From: Candidatus Lumbricidiphila eiseniae
Lineage (GTDB): Bacteria; Actinomycetota; Actinomycetes; Actinomycetales; Microbacteriaceae
Reading direction: 5' to 3'
Assembly (NCBI GenBank): GCA_002529645.1
Contig: NAEP01000046.1
Location: 1 to 64,000, forward strand
DNA: 64,000 nt
The notes beneath the pieces are model-generated. The model was not told the origin of the DNA and did not search any database. It worked only from the letters and a program-made list of their open reading frames with translations. Positions 3,225 through 58,124 of this stretch are shown in pieces. Each line of letters opens with the position of its first letter. Position 1 is the first letter of the stretch. Made by a program: the position numbers and the translations under genes.

Positions 3225-4013
3225 TCATAGCGGTGTGACGTAGGCCGAGCTGATTCCTCCGTCAACGAGAAACGTCGAGCCCGTGATAAACGACGAATCG
3301 TCACTCGCGAGGAACGCGACAGCCGCGGCGAGCTCCTCAGGTTCTGCAAAGCGGCCAACTGGAATGTGCACAAGTCGCCGCTGCGCACGTTCCGGATCCT
3401 TCGCGAACAGTTCTTGGAGGAGAGGGGTGTTCACCGGTCCCGGACAGAGCGCGTTGACGCGGATACCCTGTCGCGCGAACTGCACTCCAAGTTCGCGGCT
3501 CATTGCCAGCACTCCGCCCTTGGAGGCGGTGTACGAAATTTGCGAGGTCGCTGACCCCAGCACAGCCACGAAAGACGCCGTGTTAATAATCGAACCGCGT
3601 CCCTGCTTCACCATGTGCCTAATCGCGGCGCGCGAACAGAGATAGACCGATTTCAGATTGACATCCTGCACCTTCTGCCAGGCGGGCAACTCTGTGGTCT
3701 CGATCGAATCATCATCGGGCGGGGAAATGCCCGCGTTGTTGAACGCAACATCAACCGACCCGTAGACGCGGGCGGCTTCGTTGAAGAGATGGTTCACCTC
3801 GGTCTCTTCTGTCACGTTGACCCGCACAAAGAGTCCGTCAACAAGGGATGCCGCAGACTCTCCTGCGGTAGCATCCATGTCACCAATGACAACGCGAGCG
3901 CCCTCAGCAGCGAATCGTTTGGCGGTGGCGAGCCCGATGCCTGATCCGCCGCCGGTGACGATGGCAACCCGGCCAGCAAGGCGCTGTGTGAGATCGAGAC
4001 GAGGGATGGTCAT
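3225..4013 (-). CDS. SDR family NAD(P)-dependent oxidoreductase
   Basis: TGGGSGIG, NNAG, YTASKGG motifs. Confidence 0.92.
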   Translation of the reverse strand: MTIPRLDLTQRLAGRVAIVTGGGSGIGLATAKRFAAEGARVVIGDMDATAGESAASLVDGLFVRVNVTEETEVNHLFNEAARVYGSVDVAFNNAGISPPDDDSIETTELPAWQKVQDVNLKSVYLCSRAAIRHMVKQGRGSIINTASFVAVLGSATSQISYTASKGGVLAMSRELGVQFARQGIRVNALCPGPVNTPLLQELFAKDPERAQRRLVHIPVGRFAEPEELAAAVAFLASDDSSFITGSTFLVDGGISSAYVTPL

Positions 4014-4097
4014 AATGCTCCTTCGGAGGATGCGGCAGTATCAACGGGCGGTTGCGGGTGGCGAGGGATGGTCATCATGCTCCTTCGGGGGACGCGG
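4000..4097. repeat. CRISPR-like repeat-spacer-repeat (locus P): 4000-4035 and 4062-4097, period 62
   Basis: cgagggatggtcatMatgctccttcggRggaYgcgg, 33/36 identical; unique spacer 4036-4061. One copy covers the SDR RBS/start, the other the ALDH stop. Confidence 0.8.
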
Positions 4098-5487
4098 GAG
4101 TTGTGAGCACTGTACCGGTGGCCCCGGGATAGGGATCAACGGCAATAAATACATTCTTGGTTTCGGTGAATGCGAGTGGCGCGTCGGGACCGAGTTCCCG
4201 ACCGAGCCCGGACTGTTTGAATCCACCAAACGGGGTGGAGTAGCGCACCGAGGAGTGTGAATTTACTGAAAGATTTCCCGCTTCCACAGCGCGAGCAACG
4301 CGGATGCCGCGGCTGAGGTCACGGGTCCAGATTGACCCCGACAACCCGTAGCTGCTCGCGTTCGCAAATTCGATGGCATCAGCCTCATCTTCAAACGGGA
4401 ACACCGATACGACAGGGCCGAAGATTTCCTCGCGTGCGGCACGGGCATCACGAGCCGGGGTGAGCACGGTCGGCGGGTACCAGTTCCCGAGGCCCGTGGG
4501 GGCGGTGCCGCGGAACGCGACATCCCTCTCATCCGGAACGAACGCGGCCACTCGGTCACGATGGCTCGCGGTTACCAGCGGCCCCATCTCGGTGCCCTCG
4601 GCCGTCGGGTCGCCGACAACGACACCCTGCACGGCAGGCTCAAGCAGTTCCATGAACCGATCGTAGACGTTCCGCTCGACGAGGATGCGGCTGCGCGCGC
4701 AGCAGTCTTGTCCGGCATTCTCGAAGACACCGTAGGGCGCGGTGGCCGCCGCTTTTTCCAGATCAGAATCGGCGAACACGATATTCGCGGACTTGCCACC
4801 GAGCTCGAGGGTGACCCGAGTAATCTGCGTGGCACAGCCCGCCATAATGCGGCTGCCCACCTCGGTTGACCCCGTGAATACGATCTTACGAACCGTCTCG
4901 CTGGTGACAAACCGCTCGCCCACCACCGAACCTTTACCGGGCAGCACCTGGAACAACCCCTCGGGCAGTCCTGCCTCGAGACCGAGCTCCGCGAGTCGGA
5001 TGCTTGTCAGGGGGGTCCACTCGGCGGGCTTCAATACGACCGCGTTGCCCGCAGCGAGTGCGGGTGCAAAGCCCCACGACGCAATCGGCATCGGAAAGTT
5101 CCACGGTGTAATAACGCCCACGACGCCGAGTGGCTCAGCAAATGTGACATCCAAGCCACCCGCAACAGGGATCTGCCGCCCAAACAGTCGTTCCGGGGTT
5201 GCCGAGTAGTACTCGAGCACGTCTCGAACATGGCCTGCTTCCCACCGAGCCTGGCCGAGAGGATGTCCCGCATTCTGCACCTCCAACCCCGCGAGTTCTT
5301 CGATCGCGTCATCCACCGCGTCCGCGAAACGGCGGAGCAGCCGCCCCCGATCGGCGGGGGAGACCGCCACCCACTCGCGCTGTGCGCGGGAGGCGCGGGC
5401 AATTGCAGCATCCGTGGCCTCGACCGTCGTGGCCTCGACCGTGGTCACGATAGATTCAGTGGCGGGATTGATGATGGTGTAGCTCAT
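4075..5487 (-). CDS. Aldehyde dehydrogenase family protein
   Basis: LELGGKSANIVFADSD, ENAGQDCCARSRILVE, SGLGRELG motifs; start at MSYTIINPATES. Confidence 0.92.
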   Translation of the reverse strand: MSYTIINPATESIVTTVEATTVEATDAAIARASRAQREWVAVSPADRGRLLRRFADAVDDAIEELAGLEVQNAGHPLGQARWEAGHVRDVLEYYSATPERLFGRQIPVAGGLDVTFAEPLGVVGVITPWNFPMPIASWGFAPALAAGNAVVLKPAEWTPLTSIRLAELGLEAGLPEGLFQVLPGKGSVVGERFVTSETVRKIVFTGSTEVGSRIMAGCATQITRVTLELGGKSANIVFADSDLEKAAATAPYGVFENAGQDCCARSRILVERNVYDRFMELLEPAVQGVVVGDPTAEGTEMGPLVTASHRDRVAAFVPDERDVAFRGTAPTGLGNWYPPTVLTPARDARAAREEIFGPVVSVFPFEDEADAIEFANASSYGLSGSIWTRDLSRGIRVARAVEAGNLSVNSHSSVRYSTPFGGFKQSGLGRELGPDAPLAFTETKNVFIAVDPYPGATGTVLTTPASPEGA

Positions 5488-6347
5488 GCCGAGGTTCCTG
5501 TCGGGTGGGGAGGCGTGCAAAGGTGTTCTCGGGCAGCCCGGTATGCCCGTGCCGCCCTGATGAGCTCGCGGAAAATTCGCCGGTCGGACTGGTCTTCTTC
5601 CGGATGCCACTGCACTCCAATGGCAAAGTTCACTCCGGTGCACTCGACGGCCTCAATAACCCCGTCGGCGGACACCGCGGTCACCCGCAGATCGTGCGCG
5701 AGGGTGTCAACCGCCTGGTGGTGATAGACGGGAACGGTTATGTCCGGTTCTGAACCGTGCAGGATCGAGGCAAGAGTCGAGTCCGGCTTTATCGTGACCG
5801 GGACCCTGCCAAACTGTCCAGCACCGGGTTGATACGCCTCTGTGCCCACAGTGTCGGGCAGGTGTTGGATGAGGGTTCCGCCGAGCGTGACGTTCAGCAA
5901 TTGCATGCCGCGACAGATGCCGAGCAGCGGCAAGTGTGCCTCGAGTGCCGCCGCAATGAGCTGCTGTTCCCACTCATCACGATCGGTGCGCGGGGCGCTC
6001 GTGCGCTCGTGCGGACTCTGGCCGTATCGGGCTGGGTCAACGTCGGCACCACCGGTGATGATGAGTCCGTCGAGGGCAGCGAGCACCGAGCGGGCGATGT
6101 GCGCGGTGACCGGCTGCGGCGGCAGCAGGATCGCGATGCCACCGCAGTCGGTCACCCCGTCGAGGTACACCTTCGGCAGGAATGAGGCGGGCACGTCCCA
6201 GACGCCCGTCTGCGTCTGTTCGAGGTAGGTCGTCACGCCGATCAGCGGGGCGGTGGGGGTACCCGGAACCGGTGTGGTGGTGGCACCCGGAGCCGGGGTG
6301 GTGACCTCCGGCATCGAGTCATCCAGATCAGAGTCGTTCAAAGCCAC
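5484..6347 (-). CDS. Gamma-glutamyl-gamma-aminobutyrate hydrolase (PuuD-like, class I GATase fold)
   Basis: LLGICRGMQLLNVTLGGTLIQ; GVQWHPEE. Confidence 0.9.
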   Translation of the reverse strand: MALNDSDLDDSMPEVTTPAPGATTTPVPGTPTAPLIGVTTYLEQTQTGVWDVPASFLPKVYLDGVTDCGGIAILLPPQPVTAHIARSVLAALDGLIITGGADVDPARYGQSPHERTSAPRTDRDEWEQQLIAAALEAHLPLLGICRGMQLLNVTLGGTLIQHLPDTVGTEAYQPGAGQFGRVPVTIKPDSTLASILHGSEPDITVPVYHHQAVDTLAHDLRVTAVSADGVIEAVECTGVNFAIGVQWHPEEDQSDRRIFRELIRAARAYRAAREHLCTPPHPTGTSA

Positions 6348-7695
6348 GCACCCGCTCCCAGTCTGTGATCGTCGCCCCGAACGCGGCCAGCTCTACGCGG
6401 GCGTAGTTGAGGTAGTGGTCGACAACTTCGTCGCCGAATGCCTCGCGGGCAACGACTGATTGTTGGAACAGGTCGGCGGCTTCGGCCAGAGACGCCGGGA
6501 CCCGCGACACACCGCTCTCGTAGGCGTTACCGGCGAAGGCATCTTCGAGTTCAAGCTTATGGTCGATACCGTACAGACCCGCGGCGATCATGGCCGCGAC
6601 GGCGAGGTACTGGTTGACGTCACCACCGGGTACTCGGTTTTCCACGCGCATTCCGTGCCCGTGGCCGACAACACGGTAGGCGCAGGTGCGGTTGTCCAGT
6701 CCCCAGGCAAGGGCCGTGGGTGCAAACGAGCCGGGCACGTAGCGTTTGTAGGAGTTGATGTTGGGAGCCTGGAAGAGCGTGAACTCTCGCATGAGGGCGA
6801 GCTGGCCAGCAAGAAACTGTCGAAAGAGGGGGGACATCCCGTGCGGAGCATCCCGGTCAGCGAAAACGGCACTGCCATCGGTGCCACGCAGGCTGATGTG
6901 GATGTGGCAACTGTTTCCCTCCCGCTCGTCAAATTTTGCCATGAAGGTGAGCGATGCACCGTGCTTGTCAGCGATCTCTTTCGCACCATTTTTGTACACC
7001 GAGTGATTGTCGCAGGTGGTGAGTGCCTCGGCGTAGCGGAATGAGATTTCCTGTTGGCCGAGGTTACACTCCCCCTTGACTCCTTCGCAGTACAGGCCGG
7101 CGGCATCCATCGAGTTGCGGATATCGCGCAGCATCGGCTCCATCCGCGTCGACGCGAGCAGAGCGTAGTCGATGTTGTAGTCGCTGGCCGGGGTGAGGTC
7201 ACGGTAGCCCTTGCGCCACGCCTCGCGGTAGGTGTCGTTAAAGACAAGAAACTCCAGTTCGGTGCCGACAAACGCGGTGAGGTCACGTTCGGCCAGGCGC
7301 GCCAATTGGCGCTGCAGGATGCGCCGGGGTGATGGTTCGACCGGGGAGGCGTCTGACCAGCGCAGGTCGGCGGTGACCAGGGCGGTTGCTTCCAGCCAGG
7401 GGACCAGTCGCAGGGTGGTGAGGTCGGGGACGAGCACCATATCGCCGTATCCGCGCTCCCAACTCGACATCGCATAACCGCCAACGGTGTTGTTCTCAAC
7501 GTCCACTGCGAGGAGGTAATTGCAGGCCTCGGCACCGTGTTCGGCGATGTCCTCAAGGAACAGTCTTGCGGATGTGCGTTTGCCGACAAAGCGTCCCTGC
7601 ATGTCGGCGAAGGCGACGATGACGGTGTCAACCTGTCGAGCATCAACGGTCGTGCGTAGGTCGTCGAGGGTGAGGTATCCGGTCGGCGGGTTCAT
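6328..7695 (-). CDS. Glutamine synthetase-like gamma-glutamyl-amine ligase (PuuA/GlnA4 class)
   Basis: CNYLLAVDVENNTVGGYAMSSWERGYGDM; KGECNLGQQEISFRY; NSYKRYVPGSFAPT; RVVGHGHGMRVENRVPGGDVNQYLA. Confidence 0.9.
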   Translation of the reverse strand: MNPPTGYLTLDDLRTTVDARQVDTVIVAFADMQGRFVGKRTSARLFLEDIAEHGAEACNYLLAVDVENNTVGGYAMSSWERGYGDMVLVPDLTTLRLVPWLEATALVTADLRWSDASPVEPSPRRILQRQLARLAERDLTAFVGTELEFLVFNDTYREAWRKGYRDLTPASDYNIDYALLASTRMEPMLRDIRNSMDAAGLYCEGVKGECNLGQQEISFRYAEALTTCDNHSVYKNGAKEIADKHGASLTFMAKFDEREGNSCHIHISLRGTDGSAVFADRDAPHGMSPLFRQFLAGQLALMREFTLFQAPNINSYKRYVPGSFAPTALAWGLDNRTCAYRVVGHGHGMRVENRVPGGDVNQYLAVAAMIAAGLYGIDHKLELEDAFAGNAYESGVSRVPASLAEAADLFQQSVVAREAFGDEVVDHYLNYARVELAAFGATITDWERVRGFERL

Positions 7696-7750
7696 CGGTG
7701 ATTCCTCCGTACGTGGGCGGCCCGGGGATGGCCGAGGTGGGAACCCCGCT

Positions 7751-7898
7751 GCAAAAAGGTCTTGCTTCCGACCATTACATCACAGGAGGGACGGGTAGCG
7801 GTATGGTTGCGGCAGCCGGATTCGGCGACTTCGCAGCTTCCGGTTGGTGATGAGGTCGCTAGGAAAATGCAAAAAGGTCTGTACTCCGACCTTTTTGC
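7751..7898. promoter_or_regulatory. Two palindromic operators GCAAAAAGGTC-N8-GACC(TTTTTGC) in the divergent ligase/permease promoter region
   Basis: 7751-7773 (right half GACC only) and 7869-7898 (full 11-bp arms); identical left arms and 8-nt gaps. Confidence 0.75.
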
Positions 7899-7979
7899 CG
7901 TCTATAGTCATCCCCAGCATTGCAGTTCGAACAAGCCAACCTCCCTGCTTGGGACGAGCCTATGAGGAGACCAGTATTC

Positions 7980-9554
7980 ATGTCGAAAGATACTCTGAAA
8001 ACATCAGGTGCAACATACACACGAGTCGATAGCGGCTATTTTGAAAAACGTCGGCTTGCGCGGTCAACGGGGGTGTGGGGCCTCTGGGGCCTTGCCGTCG
8101 CCGCGGTTATCTCGGGCGATTTCTCAGGATGGAATGCCGGGTTGACGTTTGGTGGCTTTGGCGGGATGCTCATTGCCTTTGCCATTCTCATCGTCATGTA
8201 CTACGGGCTTATCTTCGCCATCGGAGAGATGTCCTCGGCGATGCCACACACGGGTGGGGCCTACTCGTTTGGGCGAGCGGCGATGGGCCCGTGGGGCGGT
8301 TTCGTGACGGGTCTTGCCGAGTCGATTGAGTATGTTGCAACAACCGCCGTTATCGTCTTCTTCTCGGCGTCATACGCAGACTCCATCGCGAAAGATCTTC
8401 TGGGTATCACAACCGAGGGAACCGTGCTTCCAGGATGGCTGTGGTACGTCATTCTCTACGTCGTGTTCATCGCCATCAACGCCGCAGGAGCGAAAATCTC
8501 GTTCGTGTTCGCCATCGTTGTCTCGATCATCTCGATTACGATCATCCTGGTGTTCTCGGGGATGGCAGTCTTCAGCGGTGCGTTCTCGTGGGACAAGCTG
8601 TGGGACATTGCCGCGGATGCCGGACAATCGGCGTTCCTCCCACACGGCATATGGCCCGCTCTTCTCTTCACGCTACCGTTCGCGATGTGGTTCTTCCTCG
8701 GGATTGAGGAGTTGCCACTGGCTGCTGAGGAATCACACAATCCGGTCCGGGACATCCCTCGCGCCGGACTGATTGCGCGCGGTACGCTCATTGTCACCGG
8801 TCTGCTCGTGCTTTTTCTCAACACCGGTGTGGTCGGGGCTGGCAAGACCGGTGAGAGTGGTGAGCCCCTGCTAGACGGATTCCGAGTCATATTCGGAGAC
8901 GGCGCGAAATCGGCCGCCGCTGTCCTCTCACTGTTCGCGCTCATTGGTCTGCTCGCCTCGCTGCAGGGGATCATGTTTGCCTACGGACGTAACATGTATT
9001 CACTCTCCCGTGCCGGGTACTACCCGAAGTTCTTCTCACTGACGGGAAAACGGCAGACACCCTGGGTTGCACTTATTGTGGGGGCGGTGATCGGGTTTGT
9101 TGCGCTCGTCGTTGTAGATCTGCTCAAGGCGGCGGGTGGCGATGATGGCGCTGGTGCGACCGCCGGTTCAATTGTGCTCAACATTGCAGTGTGGGGGGCG
9201 GTCGTTGCCTACCTCATGCAGATGGTGTCGTTTGTTATTCTGCGTCGCCGGTTCCCGAACGCGAAGCGTCCGTATCTGAGCCCCTGGGGCGTGCCCGGTG
9301 CCGTTGCGGCGGGTATTATTGCGGCACTCATCTTCGTGGGTACTCTCATCAACACAGCATTTCAACCGGCGATTATTGCGATTGCCGTTGTCTACGTTGT
9401 GATGCTTGCCTTCTTTGCCCTCTGGGGACGGCACCGGCTCATTCTGTCACCGGAGGAAGAGTATGCGATTACCGGTGGGTTACACGGCGATCCGCAGGAG
9501 GAGGGCCTTGGCGGTGCCGTAGAGAGTGAAATTCTCGCCGCCGGGAAGAAGTAG
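7980..9554 (+). CDS. APC-superfamily permease, ethanolamine-permease type
   Basis: GVWGLWGLAVAAVISGDFSGWNAGLTFGGFGGMLIAF...MSSAMPHTGGAYSF; about 12 hydrophobic segments. Confidence 0.85.
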   Translation: MSKDTLKTSGATYTRVDSGYFEKRRLARSTGVWGLWGLAVAAVISGDFSGWNAGLTFGGFGGMLIAFAILIVMYYGLIFAIGEMSSAMPHTGGAYSFGRAAMGPWGGFVTGLAESIEYVATTAVIVFFSASYADSIAKDLLGITTEGTVLPGWLWYVILYVVFIAINAAGAKISFVFAIVVSIISITIILVFSGMAVFSGAFSWDKLWDIAADAGQSAFLPHGIWPALLFTLPFAMWFFLGIEELPLAAEESHNPVRDIPRAGLIARGTLIVTGLLVLFLNTGVVGAGKTGESGEPLLDGFRVIFGDGAKSAAAVLSLFALIGLLASLQGIMFAYGRNMYSLSRAGYYPKFFSLTGKRQTPWVALIVGAVIGFVALVVVDLLKAAGGDDGAGATAGSIVLNIAVWGAVVAYLMQMVSFVILRRRFPNAKRPYLSPWGVPGAVAAGIIAALIFVGTLINTAFQPAIIAIAVVYVVMLAFFALWGRHRLILSPEEEYAITGGLHGDPQEEGLGGAVESEILAAGKK

Positions 9555-9647
9555 TCGCACAGCTCAGATGGTGGATGCCTCGGTGGCAGTGTTCCCCGGG
9601 GCATCCGTCGGGGTGGGGTGGCGGTGCGGCTTTATCGATGCTCTCTC

Positions 9648-10796
9648 CTACAGGCCAAGTTCATCCATCAGTGGTTGAACAGCAACCGGCTGCCCACCCC
9701 CGAGTGCTGATCGCCGGACTGCCTCCATGATGCACAGAGTTTCGAGTCCTTCATTGAGATTCGGTGAGTAATCTGTTCCGGTGTGGAGCGCATCGGCAAA
9801 ATACTGCAGGTAGTTCGCGAATTCTCCATAGTGCATGCCGTGCACTTCGTTGTTGAAGTGGTAGTGCCGGTATTCATACAGCATGTCTTCAACACGCTCC
9901 ACTCCGTCTTCGCCGACGTAGCTGTACTCCATATCATGGTATTTTGCGAGAGAAGTCCCGTGTGTTCCGTAGAGCAGGCACTCGATCGAATTGCGTGCAC
10001 GGGGCAGTTCATGGGCTCCGTAGTGCCCGAAAGCTCGTCCGATCTTCCCGCTTGTGCTCACGGCGTGTACGGAATATATATCGAAAGATGTGCACCCGTT
10101 TTCTCGGGCGAGGGCCGAGTGAGTACCCACCGCAGACACGGTTTCAATCGGACCCAAGTACCAGCGGAGCAGGTCGAGCGGATGGCTCAGGCCTAAGAAA
10201 ACCCAATCGCTCTTCGCCGCGATCCACGGTCGGCCGTTGTAGTACCAGTCCATTCGGTGTGTGTACTGGGTCTCTACGACCTCAATAGGTCCAATTTCTC
10301 CGCGTTCAAAGGCACGGCGCTGACGCCGGAGCGATTCAAAAAATCTGCTGCTCTGGCCCACAAATAGTTTGCGCCCCGTGCGCCGTCCGGCCGCAAGAAC
10401 CTGTTGTGCAATCTCAAAGTCGTTGACAACGGGTTTTGTGCACACAACGTCTTTACCCGCTTCGAATGCGGCGATAATCTGTTCACCGTGAACGGGATCG
10501 GGAGTGTAGATCCCCACTATGTCAACGGCGGGATTGTTGAGGAGCTCCGCATAAGATGTTGTGAACATCACCTCTGGTAGATCCTTGGCGACGCTGTTAC
10601 ACGTCTCCGGGTCAAGATCACAGCCGACTACGGGGCGAACTCTGGTCGTTCTCAGTGCGGCCAATAGTGCTGTTCGTCCTTCGTGAAGGCCCACGACCCC
10701 GAGTCCGAGTCGTTCTGACGCTGGTACGGATTCATCAACCGGGTATGAATGGACTCCTCGCGCGATTCGTGGGTAATACCCGGTGGGATGAGTCAT
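9648..10796 (-). CDS. Gfo/Idh/MocA family oxidoreductase
   Basis: GLGVVGLHEGRTALLAAL...VVGCDLD; GKDVVCTKPVVNDFEIAQQVL. Confidence 0.88.
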   Translation of the reverse strand: MTHPTGYYPRIARGVHSYPVDESVPASERLGLGVVGLHEGRTALLAALRTTRVRPVVGCDLDPETCNSVAKDLPEVMFTTSYAELLNNPAVDIVGIYTPDPVHGEQIIAAFEAGKDVVCTKPVVNDFEIAQQVLAAGRRTGRKLFVGQSSRFFESLRRQRRAFERGEIGPIEVVETQYTHRMDWYYNGRPWIAAKSDWVFLGLSHPLDLLRWYLGPIETVSAVGTHSALARENGCTSFDIYSVHAVSTSGKIGRAFGHYGAHELPRARNSIECLLYGTHGTSLAKYHDMEYSYVGEDGVERVEDMLYEYRHYHFNNEVHGMHYGEFANYLQYFADALHTGTDYSPNLNEGLETLCIMEAVRRSALGGGQPVAVQPLMDELGL

Positions 10797-10870
10797 CCTA
10801 TACCTTTCTGTCGTCTAACAGTGTTCACATGCAGTGTGTTGAGGAGAGGTAGTTTGCACAGAACACGCAG

Positions 10871-11707
10871 CTACTTTGTTGCACCGGCTGTGAGACCGGC
10901 AATGATCCGGCGTTGCATGAGAGCAACGAGAATGATGATGGGGATAATCATGATCGCTGCGTAGGCACTCATGAGATCCCAGGGACGGGCCGCTGCACCG
11001 CTGTTCTCCTGGTTCAACTGGACAAGCCCAACCGTCAGTGTTCGAGAGGCGGAAGACGACGAAAAAACCAGCGGGTAGAAAAGCTCATTCCAACTTGTAA
11101 TAAAATTGAGAAGAAACATCGTAATAAATGCAGGTCTCATCAGGGGCATGACAATGAGCTGAATTGTTTGCACAAAATTAGCTCCATCAATATAAGCAGC
11201 ATTTTCGAGATCGGCCGGGATCTGTTTGATAAATGAAACCATCAGCCATGCAGTCATGGGAACCAGAACGCTTGCTTCGAGAAGAACCAGTCCGCCGACG
11301 GTGTCGACCAATCCGAGTTTTGCGTAGAGCTGAAACAGGGGGATGGTGGTGGCAATCTGCGGCAGCGCCATTGTCAGCAACAGCAACAGCATGAGGGCAC
11401 CCGATCCGCGGAATTTTAGTCGCGCGAACGCGTACGCGGCAAAAAAAGCAAGGAAAACTGAAGCGAGAGAGGAACTGAGCGCGAATATGAGCGAATTTCG
11501 CAAGTACTCGATTCCAGGTCCCTGCTGCAGTGCCCGTTCGAAGGATTGTAGTGTGGGGTGAAGGGTGAAAAGAGTGGGTGGCGATGATAGATTTTGATTC
11601 GGTGGTAGCACAGAAGACAGTAATATCCAGTATACTGGTATCCCGAAAATAATCAGAAAAGCTACCAGTCCGATATAGGGCACAATTTTCGTGAAACGTG
11701 AGCGCAC
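10871..11707 (-). CDS. Carbohydrate ABC transporter permease (MalG-type)
   Basis: EAA-loop-like region ENAAYIDGANFVQTIQLIVMPLMRPAF; hydrophobic segments. Confidence 0.9.
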   Translation of the reverse strand: MRSRFTKIVPYIGLVAFLIIFGIPVYWILLSSVLPPNQNLSSPPTLFTLHPTLQSFERALQQGPGIEYLRNSLIFALSSSLASVFLAFFAAYAFARLKFRGSGALMLLLLLTMALPQIATTIPLFQLYAKLGLVDTVGGLVLLEASVLVPMTAWLMVSFIKQIPADLENAAYIDGANFVQTIQLIVMPLMRPAFITMFLLNFITSWNELFYPLVFSSSSASRTLTVGLVQLNQENSGAAARPWDLMSAYAAIMIIPIIILVALMQRRIIAGLTAGATK

Positions 11708-12705
11708 TACAGTTCCACCTCAAATTTCCTGAAACGGCCGAGGGCACACACGCCGACGGCGAGAACCAGTAAAAACAGAATCATTGACAGCGCAGATGAA
11801 CGACCGTAATTCAAGCCGATGAATGCATCTTGATAGGCGAGGTAGGGGAGAACCTGAGTTGCACTGCCCGGACCACCACCTGTCATTCCGTAGATAGTAT
11901 CAAATGTGCCGATCTGAAAGATGATCATAAAAACTCCCATCGTGATCATGAGAGGCATCACGAGTGGGAGTACGATCTGGCTGTGCACCCGCCACCAGCC
12001 TGCGCCGTCTACTTTGGCGGCCTCATAAAGTTCGTCGGGAACTCCCTGCAGCCCCGCGAGAACCACGAAAGCGATGAACGGTACAGACCGCCACACATTT
12101 GCCATGATAACCGCAACCTGTGCCCACAGCGGTGAGGTTAACCAGTCAATGTGAATGTTCATATACTCGAGCATCGTAGGCAGGATGCCGGAACCCTGAG
12201 AGAAGATAAATCTAAACCCGAGTGCAGAAACAATAGCCGGAATTGCCCACGGGAGGAGTACCACGGCCCGCAGGAGGCTTCGAAGGCGAAATTTTGCGTT
12301 AAGTAAAAGAGCTAAGGCGAATCCACCTACAATCTCGAGAATCGTTGAGGCTATGGCAAATGTGATCGTGAATATCAGGGCTTTTTGTGTGGCCGGGTTG
12401 CCAAGTACCTGCTCGTAGTTTTTAAGCCCAATGAAAACCGGGTTTTGCACATACGCACTCGAGTCGGTGAATGAGGTCCATGCCGTTGCGAGGAACGGAT
12501 AGATGGACGTTATCATTCGGATAAGCAACGCTGGTGCCACAAGAATGATGGCGAGGATGCCCAGCTTCTTTGGCGTCCACACTGTTCCCAGGATGCGTGC
12601 AATTGTCCAACGCAGTGAGAAACGTGGTTCGTGAAAAGCTTCCGTTACGGCGGCTGACGCGCTGACGCGCATCCTTGCCGCCGCAACGGAATTCGGATCG
12701 GACAT
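11707..12705 (-). CDS. Sugar ABC transporter permease (MalF-type)
   Basis: YEAAKVDGAGWWRVHSQIVLPLVMPL; overlaps the next permease. Confidence 0.9.
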   Translation of the reverse strand: MSDPNSVAAARMRVSASAAVTEAFHEPRFSLRWTIARILGTVWTPKKLGILAIILVAPALLIRMITSIYPFLATAWTSFTDSSAYVQNPVFIGLKNYEQVLGNPATQKALIFTITFAIASTILEIVGGFALALLLNAKFRLRSLLRAVVLLPWAIPAIVSALGFRFIFSQGSGILPTMLEYMNIHIDWLTSPLWAQVAVIMANVWRSVPFIAFVVLAGLQGVPDELYEAAKVDGAGWWRVHSQIVLPLVMPLMITMGVFMIIFQIGTFDTIYGMTGGGPGSATQVLPYLAYQDAFIGLNYGRSSALSMILFLLVLAVGVCALGRFRKFEVEL

Positions 12706-12710
12706 GTGGC

Positions 12711-13979
12711 TTATCCCAGGTCCGCTAGCTGTTTCTTAAGCTCTGACATTGCGGTATTGATGTTCATTTGTCCTGTCAGATAAGACTGACCGATTTCATC
12801 AACAATGGTTTCAGTCTTCGCAGCCTGCGGATGGTAAGGACGGGGAGTGACGAAGCCCGAGTCTGAGTAGTGCTTCAGCACCTTGGCAATCCCGGATGTG
12901 CCCAGCGCATCAAGAACGCTGGTACGTGCAGTGACGAAAAACGAGCTCGCCTTGGCCAATTTGATGGCAACTTCTGGTTGGTTCATCCACTCGACAAACT
13001 TCATTGCGGCGGACTTATTTTTTGCAGCTTTAGGAACAGACATTCCCCAACCACCTGCCCATGTTTTTGCTCCGCCGGGCCCGGCAGGTGGATCAACAAG
13101 GACCGCTTTTTCAGGTGCATACCATTCCTTGTTTGCCGGAGCTACGTCGTTGAAGAATGTCCACTGGCGCATGGTCGCCACTCTGTCAGACATGTAGGCC
13201 TGATTCTGCTGATCGTAGGTCCAGGTCAACGCATCTTTCGGTGCGTATCCCTCATCAATGAGTTTCTTTGCAAACTCGAAGGCTTGTTTTGTCCCTGCAT
13301 CAGCCTGGTAGAGGTTACCCCCGGCCTGTGCTGTAAGGTAAGCGAGGTACACAAATGTGAGTCCGGGTTTGCTTGCAGCATCTGCGAAGGAATAGATCCC
13401 CTTGGCTTTTAGCGCAGCCCCTACGGTCTCGATGTCTGCCCAGGTTTTTGGTGTTGTGAGACCATTCGCAGCCAGGAGTGCCTCGTTCGACCAACTGTAC
13501 CCAAGCTCGAAATTGTGGTAGAGCCGGTATGTGTTTCCATCTTTCTGGTTCCACTGCTTGTGAGCAGCGGCCATTCCCGCTGAGAGATCATCGGTGTACT
13601 CTTTAACGGCGACATCGCTCAGCGGTGCCAACCACCCACCAGCAGCCAGTGCAGATACGGATGGGTCACCCGTATCAATAACGTCATACGGACTTGTATT
13701 CGATGTGAATGCGGGGACCAGCTGGGTGAGCAAATCCTGGTCAGTAGCAGGTCCGCTGGCGAATTTGACAGTGATTCCAGTTTCTTTCGTAAATTCGTCA
13801 ATAATGGGCTTGATTTGTGGCTGAGCGAAGGACTGAAGAGCGTAGGTAATTTCGCCGCTGGGTTTGTCGGAGCTGCTCGATGTTGACCCGCCCGACGGAG
13901 AGCACCCAGCGAGTAGTCCCGCGGACAAAACCGCAATTCCTCCACACGCAAGTATTCTGTGCATGAGTTTCGTTTTCAT
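12711..13979 (-). CDS. Extracellular sugar-binding lipoprotein
   Basis: Lipobox LLAGCSPSG; extracellular solute-binding family 1-like body. Confidence 0.9.
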   Translation of the reverse strand: MKTKLMHRILACGGIAVLSAGLLAGCSPSGGSTSSSSDKPSGEITYALQSFAQPQIKPIIDEFTKETGITVKFASGPATDQDLLTQLVPAFTSNTSPYDVIDTGDPSVSALAAGGWLAPLSDVAVKEYTDDLSAGMAAAHKQWNQKDGNTYRLYHNFELGYSWSNEALLAANGLTTPKTWADIETVGAALKAKGIYSFADAASKPGLTFVYLAYLTAQAGGNLYQADAGTKQAFEFAKKLIDEGYAPKDALTWTYDQQNQAYMSDRVATMRQWTFFNDVAPANKEWYAPEKAVLVDPPAGPGGAKTWAGGWGMSVPKAAKNKSAAMKFVEWMNQPEVAIKLAKASSFFVTARTSVLDALGTSGIAKVLKHYSDSGFVTPRPYHPQAAKTETIVDEIGQSYLTGQMNINTAMSELKKQLADLG

Positions 13980-14057
13980 TCGATTTCTCCTTGCTTCTTT
14001 GAAAGGTAAGGTGCCGGTAGAATTCTGGAACGGTGACTATCTAGAGAATGTGATGAA

Positions 14058-14450
14058 TTAAAACACAACCCCCGCGACTAAAGCGATATTGACAAACGGA
14101 GTGCATTCACCGGTGCGAATAATTACGGCGGCAGTGGGCAAACGCTGTTTAAACTCCGCGTGACTGATGTGTTCGGGCCGGAGTGATTGAAGATCGGGTT
14201 CCAGTTGAATAAAAGGTTCAGACTGGTGAGATTCCACGGTGGCGACATAGGATTCGAGTGCTGTTGCAGCAAGAATGGCTCGGACGACGGGCACGAATCC
14301 TGGCAAACCGGGGACAACGGCAAGGTCAATGACGGGAACTTCGGCTGGTCGTGGCAGCCCTGCATCGGACACGACAATGACTTGACCGTGACCAACCCGA
14401 GCGAGCACTTCGATCATGGCTGAATTGAGAATCGGGGTTGTTTTCAGCAC
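14058..14450 (-). CDS. rbsD: D-ribose pyranase / FucU family mutarotase
   Basis: LARVGHGQVIVVSDAGLPRP; IRTGECTPFVNIALVAGVVF. Confidence 0.9.
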   Translation of the reverse strand: MLKTTPILNSAMIEVLARVGHGQVIVVSDAGLPRPAEVPVIDLAVVPGLPGFVPVVRAILAATALESYVATVESHQSEPFIQLEPDLQSLRPEHISHAEFKQRLPTAAVIIRTGECTPFVNIALVAGVVF

Positions 14451-14452
14451 TA

Positions 14453-15361
14453 CTATCGTCCGATCAGTGTGTGCAGTTGTTGTGGAGAGAGATCAGGATG
14501 GCGTGCACCAGAAACGGTTGCCGTTAACGCCCCAGCTGCGTTGCCGTGACGTGCAGCGGTGCAAATATCTGACTCCAACGCCAGCGCGACCGCTAATCCG
14601 CCAACGAAGGCATCGCCCGCGCCGACGGTGTCGATTGCGCTAACGCGGTGTGGCGGGATGTTCGTTATCACGCCTGTGTGGCTTGCCACGGTTACGCCAT
14701 CACCGCCGCGAGTGATGACCAGGTCACCGGCAAACACGGAGCGTGTCGCGTTTATGTGCTCTGGCGAGAGATCGCTGAGACCAAGCAGCTGTTCCGCCTC
14801 AATCTCATTGAGGATAAGAACGTCCACGTGCGCGAGAATGTCAATGACGGTAGGGTCAACCGGAGCGGCATTGAGTATGACACGGGCCCCCTGAGATCGG
14901 GCATATTGAACAGCCGTTCGAACCGCTATCGTTGGTACTTCGAGTTGCGCTACGAGAATATCGCCCGGCTCCAGCGGCACACCAACGACTGCGGTCTCAT
15001 CCCAGGTTTTATTTGCACCGGGTGACACAACGATCGTATTGGTGCCTAGCTGATCGACGGTAATGAGTGCGGTGCCACTCGGATACCCGTTAATCCGTTG
15101 AATCTGGCTGACGTCAGCCCCGGCGTTTGCGAGATCCTCGCGGAGGATATTCCCAGCATCATCGTCCCCAACTCGACCAACCATGACGACCGTGATCTGT
15201 GGCGGTGCGAGTTTGGCGGCAGCGTGAGCCTGGTTACCCCCCTTCCCTCCGGAAACGGTTCGGAAGTTGGTACCGAGGATTGTTTCCCCGGGTTGCGGCA
15301 GTGCCGCAACATCGATGACGAAGTCTGCGTTCAGGCTTCCGAACACAACGATTCTGGTCAT
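14453..15361 (-). CDS. rbsK: Ribokinase (PfkB family)
   Basis: GSLNADFVIDV, GGKGGNQAHAAAKL, DTVGAGDAFVGGLAVAL. Confidence 0.93.
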   Translation of the reverse strand: MTRIVVFGSLNADFVIDVAALPQPGETILGTNFRTVSGGKGGNQAHAAAKLAPPQITVVMVGRVGDDDAGNILREDLANAGADVSQIQRINGYPSGTALITVDQLGTNTIVVSPGANKTWDETAVVGVPLEPGDILVAQLEVPTIAVRTAVQYARSQGARVILNAAPVDPTVIDILAHVDVLILNEIEAEQLLGLSDLSPEHINATRSVFAGDLVITRGGDGVTVASHTGVITNIPPHRVSAIDTVGAGDAFVGGLAVALALESDICTAARHGNAAGALTATVSGARHPDLSPQQLHTLIGR

Positions 15362-16359: not shown

Positions 16360-16401
16360 TGAGAGCCTCACAACTGTGTCATATCGGGTACGTAAACAGA
16401 A

Positions 16402-16439
16402 GTAAGCGTTTACGTGATCTCTTACGCAAGCGCTTACGT
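16402..16439. promoter_or_regulatory. Tandem LacI-type operators upstream of lacI
   Basis: gtaagcgtttacg (16402-16414) and tacgcaagcgcttacgt (16423-16439), palindromic around the central CG. Confidence 0.75.
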
Positions 16440-16540
16440 TCCGCTTCACACCAGGCTAGGGACGTAAGGAGTCTTACGCAAGTGGCTCGGTTGCGGGTGG
16501 TCTTACAACCAGATTCGATTTCCGATACGGACGCAGGTGT

Positions 16541-16689
16541 GATCCCTCGTTGTGTGGGGGATCTGCCCACCTCGGCTTGTGCTCCGGTCACGTGCAACAC
16601 GATCTCTCGTTGTGTGGGGGATCTGCCAGGAGATCTTCGCCCGCAGGGATCCGTGCCGGGTGACCGTTCGCTGTGTGGGGGGATCTTTC
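16541..16689. repeat. CRISPR-like array (locus B): GATCYCTCGTTGTGTGGGGGATCTGCC at 16541, 16601, degenerate copy at 16662
   Basis: Periods 60 and 61; spacers 33 and 34 nt; third copy degenerate. Confidence 0.85.
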
Positions 16690-16712
16690 GTCGTTGTTAC
16701 GCGAATAGACTG

Positions 16713-16742
16713 CCCGGGTGATCCACTGGCGGATCACCCGGG
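16713..16742. repeat. Perfect 12-bp inverted repeat CCCGGGTGATCC-N6-GGATCACCCGGG upstream of the glycosidase start
   Basis: Read directly; operator or attenuator candidate. Confidence 0.7.
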
Positions 16743-16782
16743 GGAAACCCCTGCCGCCCTGACAGCCTCGGGAGGTTGCACA

Positions 16783-18777: not shown

Positions 18778-18854
18778 GTGTGCACGGGCTGTTCCGAAAA
18801 TATCACGGAAAAATTCGCAGTGACGAATACACGCAGGCAGATTCAGCGACGAGT

Positions 18855-18944
18855 GACTTCCCCGTACGCTGAGCGGGTGATTGCTAACAAAGAAAATTTC
18901 GTTGAGGTCAGTTCGGACTTCCCCGTATGCTGAACAGGTGACTG
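18855..18944. repeat. CRISPR-like pair (locus C): gacttccccgtaYgctgaRcRggtgaYtg at 18855 and 18916, period 61
   Basis: 25/29 identical, all differences transitions; each copy holds a -10-like TAYGCT and a GTG start. Confidence 0.8.
18877..18933 (+). CDS. Possible leaderless 18-aa upstream ORF (MIANKENFVEVSSDFPVC) before aspA
   Basis: GTG 6 nt after TACGCT; stop TGA lies inside the second repeat. Confidence 0.35.
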   Translation: MIANKENFVEVSSDFPVC

Positions 18945-21390: not shown

Positions 21391-21540
21391 GTCTTGTCCG
21401 CGCGGTCGTACCCGCAACTGTCGAACATCAATCTCCGGGAACCCGATCTGAGTCTTGTCCGCGCTGTCGTAACCGCAACACCGCTTCTGCCTGCCGCCGA
21501 AGTTCGCGAATCACCCTATCCGCGCGGTCGTACCCGCAAC
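21391..21540. repeat. CRISPR-like array (locus D): GTCTTGTCCGCGCGGTCGTACCCGCAAC x3, exact 28/33 geometry
   Basis: 21391-21418, 21452-21479, 21513-21540; periods 61 and 61; two unrelated 33-nt spacers; third copy overlaps the SDR 3' end. Confidence 0.92.
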
Positions 21541-25616: not shown

Positions 25617-25619
25617 GGG

Positions 25620-28033: not shown

Positions 28034-28122
28034 ATGTCACCCGTGAGCGCGGTAACGGTCGGCTCACCACCTGTGGAATCCCATCGCACGACACATGTCA
28101 TCGGTGAGCGCGGTAATGGTCG
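28034..28122. repeat. CRISPR-like pair (locus E): atgtcaYcSgtgagcgcggtaaYggtcg, exact 28/33
   Basis: 28034-28061 and 28095-28122; spacer 28062-28094 (33 nt); flanks diverge immediately. Confidence 0.88.
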
Positions 28123-28636: not shown

Positions 28637-28722
28637 CGGGTGCCTGTGCGTCGGGGCGAGCAGGGCGCAGCCTGGTTCGTTTTGATGGGTTGCTGCTCGG
28701 GTACCTGTGTGCCGGTGCAAGC
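28637..28722. repeat. Diverged CRISPR-like pair (locus O), period 61
   Basis: CGGGTGCCTGTGCGTCGGGGCGAGC (28637) vs CGGGTACCTGTGTGCCGGTGCAAGC (28698), 20/25. Confidence 0.5.
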
Positions 28723-28912
28723 GACTCATCTACCCTTGGTGTGCCCTGACGCCACAACGATGGGCGCACCGATCTCAAGGTCCGGGTACGGCCGCGTGGG
28801 AGATCCGGTCTGATAGAGTGTGGGCCGGATGCCGTCATGGCGGCCGCGCATGGAGAGTGCTCAGGGAAACAGACCCTGGGCGGCGCGCAACGAGAGAGAG
28901 TAGAGAACCGGT

Positions 28913-29204: not shown

Positions 29205-29292
29205 CTGGCACCCTACAAAGGTAGACATACCTTTCGGCTGTATCCCCCTTCGGCGTGTCGAGGCTGGCACCCTACAAGGGTGGGCATACCTT
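29205..29292. repeat. CRISPR-like pair (locus F): ctggcaccctacaaRggtRgRcatacctt, period 59, after rpsO
   Basis: 29205-29233 and 29264-29292; internal palindrome AAAGGT/ACCTTT; spacer 30 nt. Confidence 0.8.
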
Positions 29293-30065: not shown

Positions 30066-30155
30066 GGGGCGGGCTTTTGTTGTGCGGGTGAAACGTGCGC
30101 GGCAAGTTCCGCCTCCAAGACCCCCAGGGGCGGGCTCTCGTTGTGCGGGTGAAAC
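30066..30155. repeat. CRISPR-like pair (locus G): ggggcgggctYtYgttgtgcgggtgaaac, period 61
   Basis: 30066-30094 and 30127-30155 (27/29); spacer 32 nt. Confidence 0.85.
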
Positions 30156-40492: not shown

Positions 40493-41160
40493 ACGGGAGA
40501 ACGATGAGTGGTGAATCGGTGGATGAGCCCGTGGGTTTGGGTGCGCCTGCGGGGTCGGTTCGCGCAGACTCCGCGGTGACATCGGCCTGGGCCGGGTCGG
40601 GCGCGCCTGCGGGGTCGGTGCGGATCGGGCTCATCTGGGCAGAGGCACACAACGGGGTGATCGGTGCGGGCGGCGGTCTTCCGTGGCATGTGCCGGAGGA
40701 TCTTGCACACTTTAAAGAGGTGACCCTGGGACATCCTGTACTCATGGGGCGTAAGACCTGGGATTCACTGCCCGAGCGATTTCGGCCGCTGCCCGGGCGG
40801 GTCAACCTTGTTCTGTCCCGTCAAGCAGAGTGGGCAGCCACAGGAGCGATGAGGGTGGCTTCGTTTGAGGAGGCGGTTGCCCGGGTGGGTTCGCGGGCAC
40901 TGCCGACCGCAGGTGCATCGGAGACACCCGAGGGGGGTGGGCTGTGGCTGTGGGTGATTGGCGGGGCTGAGCTGTTCGCCGCTGTTATTGACAGGGCACA
41001 CCGGCTCGAAGTGACCGAACTCGACCTTGCGGTCAACGGTGAGGCGTTCGCCCCCTCGATTGATCTTAGCTGGCGGCTGAGTCACAGCGAACCGCTGGTG
41101 GGTGTGCTCGCCTCGCGGGCCGGTGTCGGGTACCGCTTCCGCCGATACGAACGGCCATGA
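40489..41160 (+). CDS. folA: Dihydrofolate reductase (true start may be GTG at 40618)
   Basis: [50 protein letters not shown]. Confidence 0.92.
40537..40622. repeat. CRISPR-like pair (locus Q): tYgggYgcgcctgcggggtcggtKcg, period 60, in-frame at folA 5' end
   Basis: 40537-40562 and 40597-40622; encodes duplicated GAPAGSVR. Confidence 0.7.
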
Positions 41161-42168: not shown

Positions 42169-42302
42169 ACCGCGGGGGTTACCCGGTGGGTCGCGGGGGC
42201 TGCCCCTCCGACCATCGGGAGCTGTGAGCGAACTCACGGGTTGCCCGGTGGGTCGCGGGGGTTACCCGGTGAACTACGAGGGCAGCCCGGTGACCCACGG
42301 AG
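42161..42302. repeat. Repeat cluster (locus I): GGGTTRCCCGGTGGGTCGCGGGGGYTRCCC at 42176 and 42238 (period 62) within 21-bp CCCGGTG units
   Basis: CCCGGTG at 42161, 42182, 42244, 42265, 42286. Confidence 0.8.
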
Positions 42303-44271: not shown

Positions 44272-44360
44272 GTTCCGGGCACGGGCACACTGACCGGGCA
44301 GTTTCCGGACGAGGAAGGACTCTCGGTCGCGCGTTCCGGGCACGGGCACACTGACCGGGC
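44272..44360. repeat. CRISPR-like pair (locus J1): identical GTTCCGGGCACGGGCACACTGACCGGGC, exact 28/33
   Basis: 44272-44299 and 44333-44360, 28/28 identical; 33-nt spacer. Confidence 0.92.
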
Positions 44361-44421
44361 TGTCTGTGGGTGTGATCACGGGCGGTTTCCTCGAGCGTGC
44401 CGCGCACGTCGATGATCTTGA

Positions 44422-44508
44422 GTGATCGCTGACACTCGCGGGCGGCTCTGTGCGTCCGACACCGCGGATATTTGCAACTTCGTGATCGCTGACACTCGCG
44501 GGCGGCTC
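44422..44508. repeat. CRISPR-like pair (locus J2): identical GTGATCGCTGACACTCGCGGGCGGCTC, 27/33
   Basis: 44422-44448 and 44482-44508, 27/27 identical; 33-nt spacer. Confidence 0.92.
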
Positions 44509-49374: not shown

Positions 49375-49611
49375 GTGAAGCTCAGTGAGCTCCAACTCGC
49401 GGTGGAGGAGGAATTCGGGTCCGCATACGGTGCTGTTGTTCTTAGCGATGTCGTACTGGCAGAACTCGGGTCACGCACTGCACGGGAGGCGCTTGACCGC
49501 GGTATTCCGGCCCGAGAGGTGTGGCTCGCTCTGTGCCGAGCAATGGATGTCCCGGACTCTCGCCGTCATGGCGCTGGCCGTCGCACTCCGCGCCCGGGCG
49601 TGTCGCTGTAA
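49375..49611 (+). CDS. DUF3046 family protein
   Basis: MKLSELQLAVEEEFGSAYGAVVLSDVVLAELGSRTAREALDRG; position upstream of recA. Confidence 0.85.
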   Translation: MKLSELQLAVEEEFGSAYGAVVLSDVVLAELGSRTAREALDRGIPAREVWLALCRAMDVPDSRRHGAGRRTPRPGVSL

Positions 49612-49754
49612 TCTTTCTCCGACGCGCGGGGAAAATCGCGCTGGTCACCGTCGACGATGTTCCCCTGCAGGATCTTTCTCCGACGCGCGGGGAAAATCGC
49701 GTCGGCGTCGGCGGATTCGCACACAATCTTCCTCCGACACGCGGGGAAAATTCG
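49611..49754. repeat. CRISPR-like array (locus K): ATCTTTCTCCGACGCGCGGGGAAAATCGCG x3, last copy degenerate and abutting the recA SOS box
   Basis: Starts 49611, 49672, 49726 (periods 61 and 54); first two copies identical over 30 nt. Confidence 0.88.
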
Positions 49755-49766
49755 AACGTGTGTTCG
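49753..49766. promoter_or_regulatory. LexA/SOS box CGAACGTGTGTTCG upstream of recA
   Basis: Matches the Gram-positive type CGAAC-N4-GTTCG. Confidence 0.85.
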
Positions 49767-51864: not shown

Positions 51865-51965
51865 CGCCGAACCACATGATCGCTCCTCGGCAAGCGGAGA
51901 CACGATCAGGGATATCCTCGCGGCACGCCGAACAGATGATCGCTCCTCGGCAGGCGGAGACACGA
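51865..51965. repeat. CRISPR-like pair (locus L): CGCCGAACcacATGATCGCTCCTCGGCARGCGGAGACACGA, period 60/61
   Basis: 51865-51905 and 51926-51965; ~40-nt repeat, 20-nt spacer. Confidence 0.85.
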
Positions 51966-52017: not shown

Positions 52018-53589
52018 ATGGGTAACCTCAGTGAGGCTCTGGCGGATTCCGCGATGACGTCGGTTGTGCGCACCTACGAGGTCCGCACCTTTGGGTGCCA
52101 AATGAACACCCACGATTCGGAACGGTTGGCCGGGTCACTGGAAGCGGCTGGCTACCGTCCGGCCAACGGCCAAGAAGCTGATGTTGTCGTCATCAACACG
52201 TGCGCCGTTCGTGAAAATGCTGACAATAAGCTCTACGGAAACCTCGGTCATCTCGCTCACGTGAAACGCCGCCACGAGGGAATGCAAATCGCGGTGGGTG
52301 GCTGCCTCGCGCAAAAAGACAAATCCATCATTTTGGAAAAAGCACCGTGGGTGGACGTTGTATTCGGCACCCACAATATGGGATCGCTCCCCGGCCTGCT
52401 GGAGCGCGCGCGCCACAATCAAGAGGCGCAGCTCGAGATCCTTGACTCGCTCGACACCTTCCCGTCCACGCTGCCGAGTAAACGTGACTCAACCTACAGT
52501 GGGTGGGTCTCAATATCGGTCGGCTGCAACAACACGTGCACCTTCTGCATTGTGCCCGCACTGCGCGGAAAGGAGAAAGATCGCCGCCCGGGAGACATCC
52601 TGGCAGAAATTGGCATGCTTGTTGATGACGGGGCGATCGAGATCACACTGCTTGGACAAAATGTGAACTCCTACGGGGTCGAATTCGGAGACCGACTGGC
52701 GTTCGGCAAACTGTTGCGGGCCGCGGGTACCATCCCGGGACTTGAACGCATTCGTTTCACGAGCCCACACCCGGCCGCGTTTACCGATGATGTCATTGAC
52801 GCGATGGCCGAAACGCCGACCGTCATGCCCCAACTGCACATGCCCCTGCAAGCGGGGTCAGACCGGATCCTCAAGGCAATGCGTCGCTCCTATCGCGCAG
52901 AGCGGTTTCTCGGCATCCTTGATCGTGTGCGCGAGCGTATCCCGCACGCGGCGATTACGACGGACATTATCGTCGGTTTCCCCGGTGAGACCGAAGAAGA
53001 TTTCGAGCAAACCCTGCGCGTGGTCGAAGAATCCCGGTTTTCCTCTGCCTTTACGTTCCAATACTCGATCCGCCCCGGAACCCCGGCCGCGACGATGCCC
53101 AACCAGATCCCCAAAGCGGTCGTGCAGCGACGGTACGAACGTCTCGTTGCGCTGCAAGACGATATCTCGTGGGAAGAAAACAAGAAAATTATTGGCCGCA
53201 CTGTGAACGTGCTCGTTGCTAACGGTGAAGGGAAAAAAGACGCAGAAACTCAACGCCTGAGTGGGCGTGCCGAAGACAACCGACTCGTGCACTTCAGCCT
53301 GCCTACCGGCTCGGTTACTCCGCGGCCAGGGGATATTGTGTCGGTGCTGGTCACACAGGCTGCGCCCTTTCACCTCATCGCGGATGACACGACCGGCGCA
53401 CCACTGCAGCTTCGGCGCACCCGCGCGGGTGACGCGTGGGATCGTGCACGCTCGGAAAGCTGTGGGATACCCAGCCCTGTGCTCGTGACGGCGGGTGGCG
53501 CTTCCCGCACCAGCACCGCAGGCGATAGGAGCGCGGATGCCTCGCCGTCGGGTCGGGTGTCACTCGGGTTCCCAACCCTGCGATCCTAA
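52018..53589 (+). CDS. miaB: tRNA-2-methylthio-N6-dimethylallyladenosine synthase
   Basis: [39 protein letters not shown]. Confidence 0.96.
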
Positions 53590-53737
53590 GCGCACGATGC
53601 GGGCAACCCCTTTCCCTTTATTACATATGTGTAACGGTCCTGCCGTCTTAGCGCACGATGCGGGCAAGGAAGAGAGTTCGGAGACCACCGAGGGCATGCA
53701 CAATCTGTTTAGCGCATGATGCGGGCAAGGAAGAGAG
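53587..53737. repeat. CRISPR-like array (locus M): TTAGCGCAYGATGCGGGCAAGGAAGAGAG x3, period 61/61
   Basis: Core A of AGCGCA at 53589, 53650, 53711; first copy degenerate in its 3' part and overlapping the miaB stop. Confidence 0.9.
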
Positions 53738-53749
53738 AGCGGAGCTTGT

Positions 53750-54706: not shown

Positions 54707-54735
54707 ACTTGGAACGCCCCCGACGAAGGAGAACC

Positions 54736-57155: not shown

Positions 57156-57958
57156 TGGCTAACACCCCCCGCACAGTCGGCTCCGTTATTACCCGCTGCA
57201 CTGCCGAGCGTCGTGGTGCGCTCATCGGGTACCTGCCCGTCGGGTTCCCCACGCTCGATGAGAGCGTTGATGCGGCCGTCGCGCTCGTAGAAAACGGTGT
57301 CGATATCCTCGAGCTGGGACTGCCGTACTCCGATCCGGTCATGGATGGCCCGGTCATCCAGCGGGCAACGCTACAGGCCCTCGCCACTGGCTTCCGAGTG
57401 CCTCAGGTCTTCGCCGCGATCGCACGCATCACCGAGCAGGTCGCGGCCCCTGTGCTCGTCATGACGTACTGGAATCTCGTGCTTCAACACGGCGTCAACC
57501 GGTTTGCCGATGATCTTGTCGCGGCGGGTGGGGCTGGCCTCATCACTCCCGATCTCATTCCCGAGGAGGCAGCCGAGTGGATCGCGGCCTCCGATCGCAC
57601 GGGTCTCGACCGAGTGTTTCTCGCCGCGCCCAGTTCGACCGATGAGCGCCTCACACAGGCTGTCGCTGCAAGCCGTGGCTTTGTGTACGCTGTCTCCACG
57701 ATGGGCATCACGGGTGCCCGGAACGATGTCGACACGGCCGCTCGTACCCTCGTCGAACGCCTCCGCAGGGCGGGTGCTCCCGCAAGCTGCGTCGGCCTCG
57801 GAATCTCCACCGCCGAACAGGTGCGGGATGTTCTCGGCTATGCCGATGGTGCCATCGTCGGATCAGCGCTCGTTGACGCACTGATGACCGACGGAGTTGC
57901 GGCGGTCGGGGAGTTGGCGGCCTCCCTTGCGCGCGGCACGCGTGCGGATCGCGGGTAA
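57152..57958 (+). CDS. trpA: Tryptophan synthase alpha chain
   Basis: [20 protein letters not shown]; overlaps trpB. Confidence 0.97.
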
Positions 57959-57975
57959 CCGAGGTCGTGGGCCTT

Positions 57976-58124
57976 GGGGCGCCTCCTGCGCGAGGAAACC
58001 GCGAAAGGACATTTTTGCTCAATGAGCCTCTACTCGGGGCGGCCTCCTGCGCGCGGAAACCGCACTGCTCTCAGGTCGGTCGCGCACACTGGTCGGAGGG
58101 CGGCTTCTCGCGCAGAAACCGCAC
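57976..58124. repeat. CRISPR-like array (locus N): GGGGCGGCCTCCTGCGCGCGGAAACCGCAC-type x3, period about 60-61
   Basis: Copies near 57976, 58036, 58098; aligned with 1-2 nt indels. Confidence 0.8.

Follow-up and report, generated by a model that had tools for sequence, protein, structure and literature searches.

Dispersed CRISPR-like micro-arrays in Candidatus Lumbricidiphila eiseniae as probable off-target integrations by its own type I-E Cas1-Cas2

The Cas1-Cas2 integrase of type I-E CRISPR (clustered regularly interspaced short palindromic repeats)-Cas systems is usually held to be tightly confined to the leader-repeat junction. Orphan mini-CRISPR arrays of bacteria and archaea as a rule have their repeat in common with a system that is resident or has been lost. 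Here we describe a class of small loci, referred to as micro-arrays, in a stretch of 64,000 nucleotides (the window; contig NAEP01000046.1) and in other sampled parts of the genome of Candidatus Lumbricidiphila eiseniae. Each has a private direct repeat of ~28 nt on either side of a spacer of about 33 bp. Like orphan mini-arrays they have few repeats and lie away from cas genes; unlike them, they share only a weak dyad with the resident array.

The closest described process is the non-canonical integration catalysed by overexpressed E. coli type I-E Cas1-Cas2 (Nivala, Shipman and Church 2018, cited in PMC11788318 and PMC9456107). The two cases have in common a I-E integrase, an insert of ~33 bp, a target duplication of ~28 bp and chromosomal sites resembling the native repeat. 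The E. coli events were obtained under laboratory overexpression, whereas here an estimated ~350 loci are fixed in one natural genome; mostly self-derived spacers, frame-selected protein insertions and loci of up to 7 repeats also set the present case apart. Our literature search, which left most subscription papers outside its reach, turned up no description of a natural genome in which such events number in the hundreds. The 2018 study reportedly also contains a few putative natural cases, from Yersinia pestis and Sulfolobus islandicus. The process is therefore known, while its natural scale, the self origin of the spacers and their fixation by the hundred look new.

Based upon the evidence below we consider it highly probable (about 0.93) that the micro-arrays are off-target integrations by the genome's own type I-E Cas1e-Cas2e. 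This was the first of two explanations offered by the original prediction, which was made from the window alone; the data do not call for its alternative, a different integrase with the same ruler.

The genome comprises 2.85 Mb in 73 contigs, and all genome-wide counts given here refer to sampled stretches totalling 1,582,582 bp (55.6%). All ungapped self-matches were scored at all offsets (match +1, mismatch -2), independently of the loci picked earlier, and the canonical array was left out of the pair counts. Offsets of 57–64 yielded 233 pairs (125 at 61, 67 at 60, 20 at 62 and 10 at 59) and the other offsets from 30 to 118 combined only 27, that is, 29 pairs per offset, with the mode at 61, versus 0.33. 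The same scan of 1.19 Mb of third-order Markov sequence gave zero such pairs. The micro-arrays amount to 195 loci with 233 spacers: two repeat copies are present in 166 loci, three in 24, four in 3, five in 1 and seven in 1. Extrapolation to the whole genome gives an estimated ~350 loci and ~420 spacers, or ~0.9% of its length.

Within the window, periods of 59–62 account for 17 pairs and the other offsets from 30 to 150 together for 5, and the genome-wide pair counts indicate that the window is typical of the genome. Fifteen of the 16 window loci originally listed were recovered by repeat search where the list had placed them, with 2–3 copies of ~21–40 nt at 86–100% identity; the remaining one, O (position 28637; 20/26 identities, below threshold), is possible rather than proven. 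The reported period of 59–62, with a single interval of 54 at locus K, was found again, and the repeats are, as had been said, private to each locus and unrelated between loci. The 29/32 splits reported for some loci stood only in part, some being boundary ambiguity; the commonest geometry is 28+33 where a source match fixes the boundary.

The spacers had been described as unique, which did not hold. BLAST comparison of whole stretches returned 31–36-bp matches coinciding with spacers, and 96 of the 233 spacers have a match elsewhere in the sampled sequence, where about 55.6% at most could have one even if every spacer came undiverged from this genome; most are judged to be copies of the genome itself. 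Among loci with repeats at least 96% identical the figure is 65 of 140. The modal length of the self matches is exactly 33 bp, 53% of them are perfect, and more than one source exists for only two. About 84% of the sources lie inside confidently called genes, which is near the genome average (such genes make up 77% of the sample, the calls being approximate). A flanking-DNA control for the self matches at first seemed high, at 50 of 510; on inspection many of its matches proved to stem from dispersed repetitive elements and to be longer.

These observations bear upon the proposal that ordinary selection or slippage produced the loci, as direct-repeat regulatory motifs or as tandem duplications. 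Most loci are indeed intergenic, and direct repeats set at a distance can serve as operators in bacteria. A different repeat, however, is found at every locus, slippage would duplicate the 61-bp unit in full, hardly any pairs occur at other offsets and congeners are without the repeats. We count it as a refutation that the inserts are 33-bp copies, some of them exact, of distant chromosomal sites, and give this explanation almost no credence.

Of the 68 sources with clean boundaries, 40 have the dinucleotide AA directly next to the protospacer on one side only, and none has it on both (expected 7.9%; p = 7e-27). The protospacers of canonical-array spacers found in this genome have AA immediately 5' in the canonical orientation in 5/5 cases. 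That the same protospacer-adjacent motif (PAM) should appear in two sets of loci whose repeats are unrelated argues more strongly than any other single observation for a shared integrase. With 33-bp captures from the chromosome beside this motif, the off-target integration suggested by the original prediction passes a test that might have gone against it.

The predicted cas1e and cas2e genes are present, as part of a full and intact-looking type I-E locus on contig C67. In order, cas1e and cas2e are followed directly by the canonical array, and cas5e, cas7e, cse2, cas8e, cas3 and cas6e lie on the other strand. The array (L002:17699 to L003:1817) has ~70 repeats of 28 nt, ATCCGCCCCGCACATGCGGGGGTGAACC, and spacers of 33–34 nt at a period of 61. 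Cas1 is alignable over its length to the solved I-E Cas1 and has the conserved EG.RV.R, GFVHTG and D.ADLYK motifs in common with it. On this contig (L002/L003), Fpg-like and RpiB-like genes stand between cas1e-cas2e with the array and the convergent effector genes. The canonical leader (~48 nt) plus the first repeat is tandemly duplicated at the array head (L002:17590-17730), and a small second array with a variant repeat, GTTCACCCCCGCACGCGCGGGGTAGATCG, adjoins cas6e (L003:11839-11990); one of its spacers has a 26-bp match elsewhere (L013).

The canonical array and the micro-arrays are alike in the period of 61, the 28-nt repeat, the 33-nt spacers, the AA PAM and the CC/GG dyad. Unlike the micro-arrays, whose repeats are private, whose spacers derive from the host and which have no leader motif in common, the canonical array has one shared repeat, a leader beside cas2e and few identifiable targets, mainly in a prophage. 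Its spacers have 52% guanine plus cytosine (GC) versus 62% in those of the micro-arrays, and 5 of 67 versus 96 of 233 have a match in the sample (p = 5e-8). A preliminary statement that no canonical spacer matches the chromosome, based upon a 42% sample, was revised to these 5 of 67 when more sequence became available. Micro-arrays might be taken for remnants of broken canonical arrays, dispersed by transposition or rearrangement, since period and spacer length are the same and a few loci have canonical-like cores (e.g., the seven-copy array at L156:749). Against this speak the separate repeat sequence at each locus, the host origin and different GC content of the spacers, and the rarity in the sampled genome of matches to canonical spacers, of which four out of five fall in a prophage. 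We therefore think such dispersal most improbable.

When the 28-nt private repeats are oriented by the PAM, C is found at positions 8 and 9 (29/40 each) and G at position 21 (32/40). These positions coincide with the CCCC and GGGGG of the canonical repeat; elsewhere the resemblance is weak. No common upstream (leader) motif was found among the PAM-oriented loci. Retention of the dyad positions without an upstream motif would point to an integrase that keeps its dyad contacts while dispensing with the leader. Orienting the loci by similarity to the canonical repeat instead was abandoned, as this orientation disagreed with the PAM side; such a mismatch is expected of a near-palindromic motif. 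In a plain stem-length test the repeats were not clearly separable from composition-matched shuffles, and the dyad claim accordingly rests on the fixed CC/GG positions and not on hairpin strength.

In comparison with other genomes, Cas2e (PF09707) was found in 0 of the 59 congeners searched, and 497 kb of congener sequence contained one pair at offsets 57–64, coding, seen in two overlapping stretches and taken as chance. The sequence surrounding 80 Cas1e genes from other organisms, 1.49 Mb in all, has nearly all of its pairs in canonical-like arrays. The expectation that randomised or related DNA might contain such pairs at equal frequency, which would have spoken against integration, thus failed, the related genomes without cas2e and the other Cas1e loci being essentially empty. 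Among the genomes compared, the load appears to be peculiar to Candidatus Lumbricidiphila eiseniae.

Several observations nevertheless weigh against our interpretation. The genomes with the closest Cas1e (48–57% identity) have few weak or low-complexity pairs outside arrays and no comparable load, and possession of I-E Cas1-Cas2 is therefore not sufficient. No intergenic empty allele was seen at the DNA level in congeners, which are only 77–81% identical, so that intergenic empty sites are not showable by DNA alignment. The corrected self-derived share is estimated at ~74% overall and ~83% for young loci, and the rest may be diverged or foreign. Of the sources, 28/68 have no full AA PAM, many of these having A at -1. 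Finally, the activity itself is read from fossils.

The lack of a full AA PAM at about 40% of sources, together with target sites only weakly like the canonical repeat, could also be taken to favour a different mechanism with the same ruler, an unrelated integrase or a DNA-repair process, which would copy pieces of the chromosome of ~33 bp into staggered breaks and fill in 28 bp. But the resident canonical array has exactly this 28+33 ruler, the PAM is that of its spacers, the conserved dyad positions coincide with its repeat, and the load is absent from congeners without cas2e. Such a process seems to us very unlikely.

Returning to Cas1e-Cas2e, we infer from the sequence its catalysis, the strand-transfer chemistry and the gap-fill duplication. 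The complex would capture ~33-bp prespacers from its own chromosome, preferably beside a 5'-AA PAM, and would attack not the leader-repeat junction but chromosomal sites where nothing of the canonical repeat except its CC...GG dyad contacts is kept. Staggered attack and gap filling would duplicate the ~28-bp target and so generate repeat-33-repeat units; re-entry at some loci would let them grow to 3–7 repeats. Insertions would persist where they are harmless, either between genes or, in frame, as 20 residues in protein linkers and termini.

The distribution with respect to genes is consistent with this last step. Most micro-arrays are intergenic and only 19 of the 233 events lie wholly inside confidently called genes; in 17 of these 19 the period is divisible by three, versus 58/214 elsewhere (p = 1e-7). 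Where the product is recognised they are mostly near termini or between domains. The hosts are dihydrofolate reductase (N-terminus; window locus Q), PurH, the DhaK-DhaL linker, phosphoenolpyruvate carboxykinase (N-terminus), a LacI-type regulator, GalT, a fused phosphotransferase system protein and a Dyp peroxidase. Locus Q encodes the duplication GAPAGSVR...GAPAGSVR. In PurH 36 residues (213–248) stand here versus about 4 in the M. tuberculosis structure 3zzm, and the array spans residues 223–252, which is consistent with an uninserted state in that relative. Empty sites in relatives, looked for on the strength of the original prediction, were seen in one gene and at the protein level: rows read in a wrong frame having been left out of the alignment, the congeners have PAYRKG-SVVAAE at the DhaK-DhaL junction versus PAYRKG-VPTLVHEGDQSPTPYTAQPR-VPALVREA here.

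It was further suggested that neo-CRISPR loci are being seeded. Some loci did grow to 4–7 repeats; their CRISPR function is only putative, and none of the micro-arrays shares its repeat with the resident array, as a functional array would. The seven-copy neo-array (L156:749-1140) has a canonical-like core and four self-derived spacers. It lies within a family of dispersed repetitive regions, other members of which are in L005, L018, L055, L062 and L157-L159. We infer that as CRISPRs most neo-loci are inert, since they seem to have no leader, promoter or Cas6e-competent repeats.

Four of the five matched canonical spacers target a prophage (L244, G000:C11:20001-40000; 5148–19187) with terminase, portal, capsid, tail, endolysin and integrase genes; two matches there are exact and one has a single mismatch, all with the AA PAM. 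Exact search of IMG/VR with four canonical spacers gave no matches, and a phage database search gave weak matches only, the best of them without AA in its flank. Perfect matches to a resident prophage with the correct PAM hint that interference is blocked or off, and suggest that it may be silenced by, for example, an anti-CRISPR. The self spacers may be tolerated because the neo-repeats are not processed into CRISPR RNAs (crRNAs), because interference is blocked or off, or both.

With rather less assurance than for the integration events themselves, we think it probable that the CRISPR integrase acts in this genome as a genome-wide insertional mutator, responsible for an estimated ~400 self-derived 33-bp copies (~0.9% of the genome), for 20-residue insertions in enzymes, for a record of raw prespacer choice on which immune selection has had little effect and for the possible seeding of CRISPR or regulatory loci. 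Cas1-Cas2 would then seem to be a natural mutator that copies chromosomal DNA to new places, protein-coding genes included. If few of the spacers yield crRNAs, they would record what the adaptation machinery takes up before autoimmunity removes self-targeting cells, and PAM strictness, spacer length, source bias and the rules of target-site choice could be read from hundreds of natural events. With its series of loci from 2 to 7 repeats, the genome also allows the birth of new CRISPR arrays to be tested directly.

The window loci are collected in Table 1. Ten of the 15 firm ones have an identified self source, targeted searches having added B, D and C.

Table 1. Micro-arrays of the window, with the places in the genome that their spacers match
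Locus	Position	Strand	Repeats	Period	Spacer and source	Remarks
P	4000..4101		two, 36/40 identical	62	source not found in 55.6% sample	
B	16541..16627		two	60	16568-16600, 33/33 copy of G000:C72:65314-65346	
C	18855..18944		two, 29 nt	61	similar to C45:16895-16924 (90%)	
D	21391..21540		three	61/61	first, 21419-21451, copies C35:2769-2801 (94%); second unmatched	
E	28034..28122		two, 28 nt	61	28062-28094 copies C2 (L054:8016-8048, 94%)	5' AGA beside source
O	28637..28723			61		weak candidate
F	29205..29292		two, 29 nt	59	copies C5 (L055:19441-19472, 97%)	
G	30066..30155		two, 29 nt	61	30095-30127 copies C56 (L053:10714-10746, 97%)	AA PAM on reverse side
Q	40534..40622	+		60	source not found in sampled genome	in frame, N-terminal extension of dihydrofolate reductase (40489-41160)
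I	42176..42288		two, third partial copy overlapping	62	42206-42238, 33/33 copy of L061:14447-14415 (C12)	
J1	44272..44363		two, perfect, 28 nt	61	44300-44332, 33/33 copy of C6:28825-28857	
J2	44422..44508		two, perfect, 27 nt	60	source not found	
K	49611..49755		three, first two identical over 30 nt	61, 54	first-spacer source not found	
L	51873..51965		two	60	copies L061:10076-10048 (29 bp, 93%)	
M	53586..53744		three	61/61	first-spacer source not found	
N	57976..58063		two	61	58003-58035, 33/33 copy of L238:2677-2709 (C8)	

Rfam and tRNA searches of the window gave no matches. Two other repetitive features were noted in it. At 35053–35135, near the start of a peptidase M16 gene, a 28-bp unit occurs three times in tandem (78% match) and is not of the repeat-33-repeat type. 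At the head of the window (1–2160) an open reading frame is made of about five tandem units of 372 bp (Tandem Repeats Finder score 1578).

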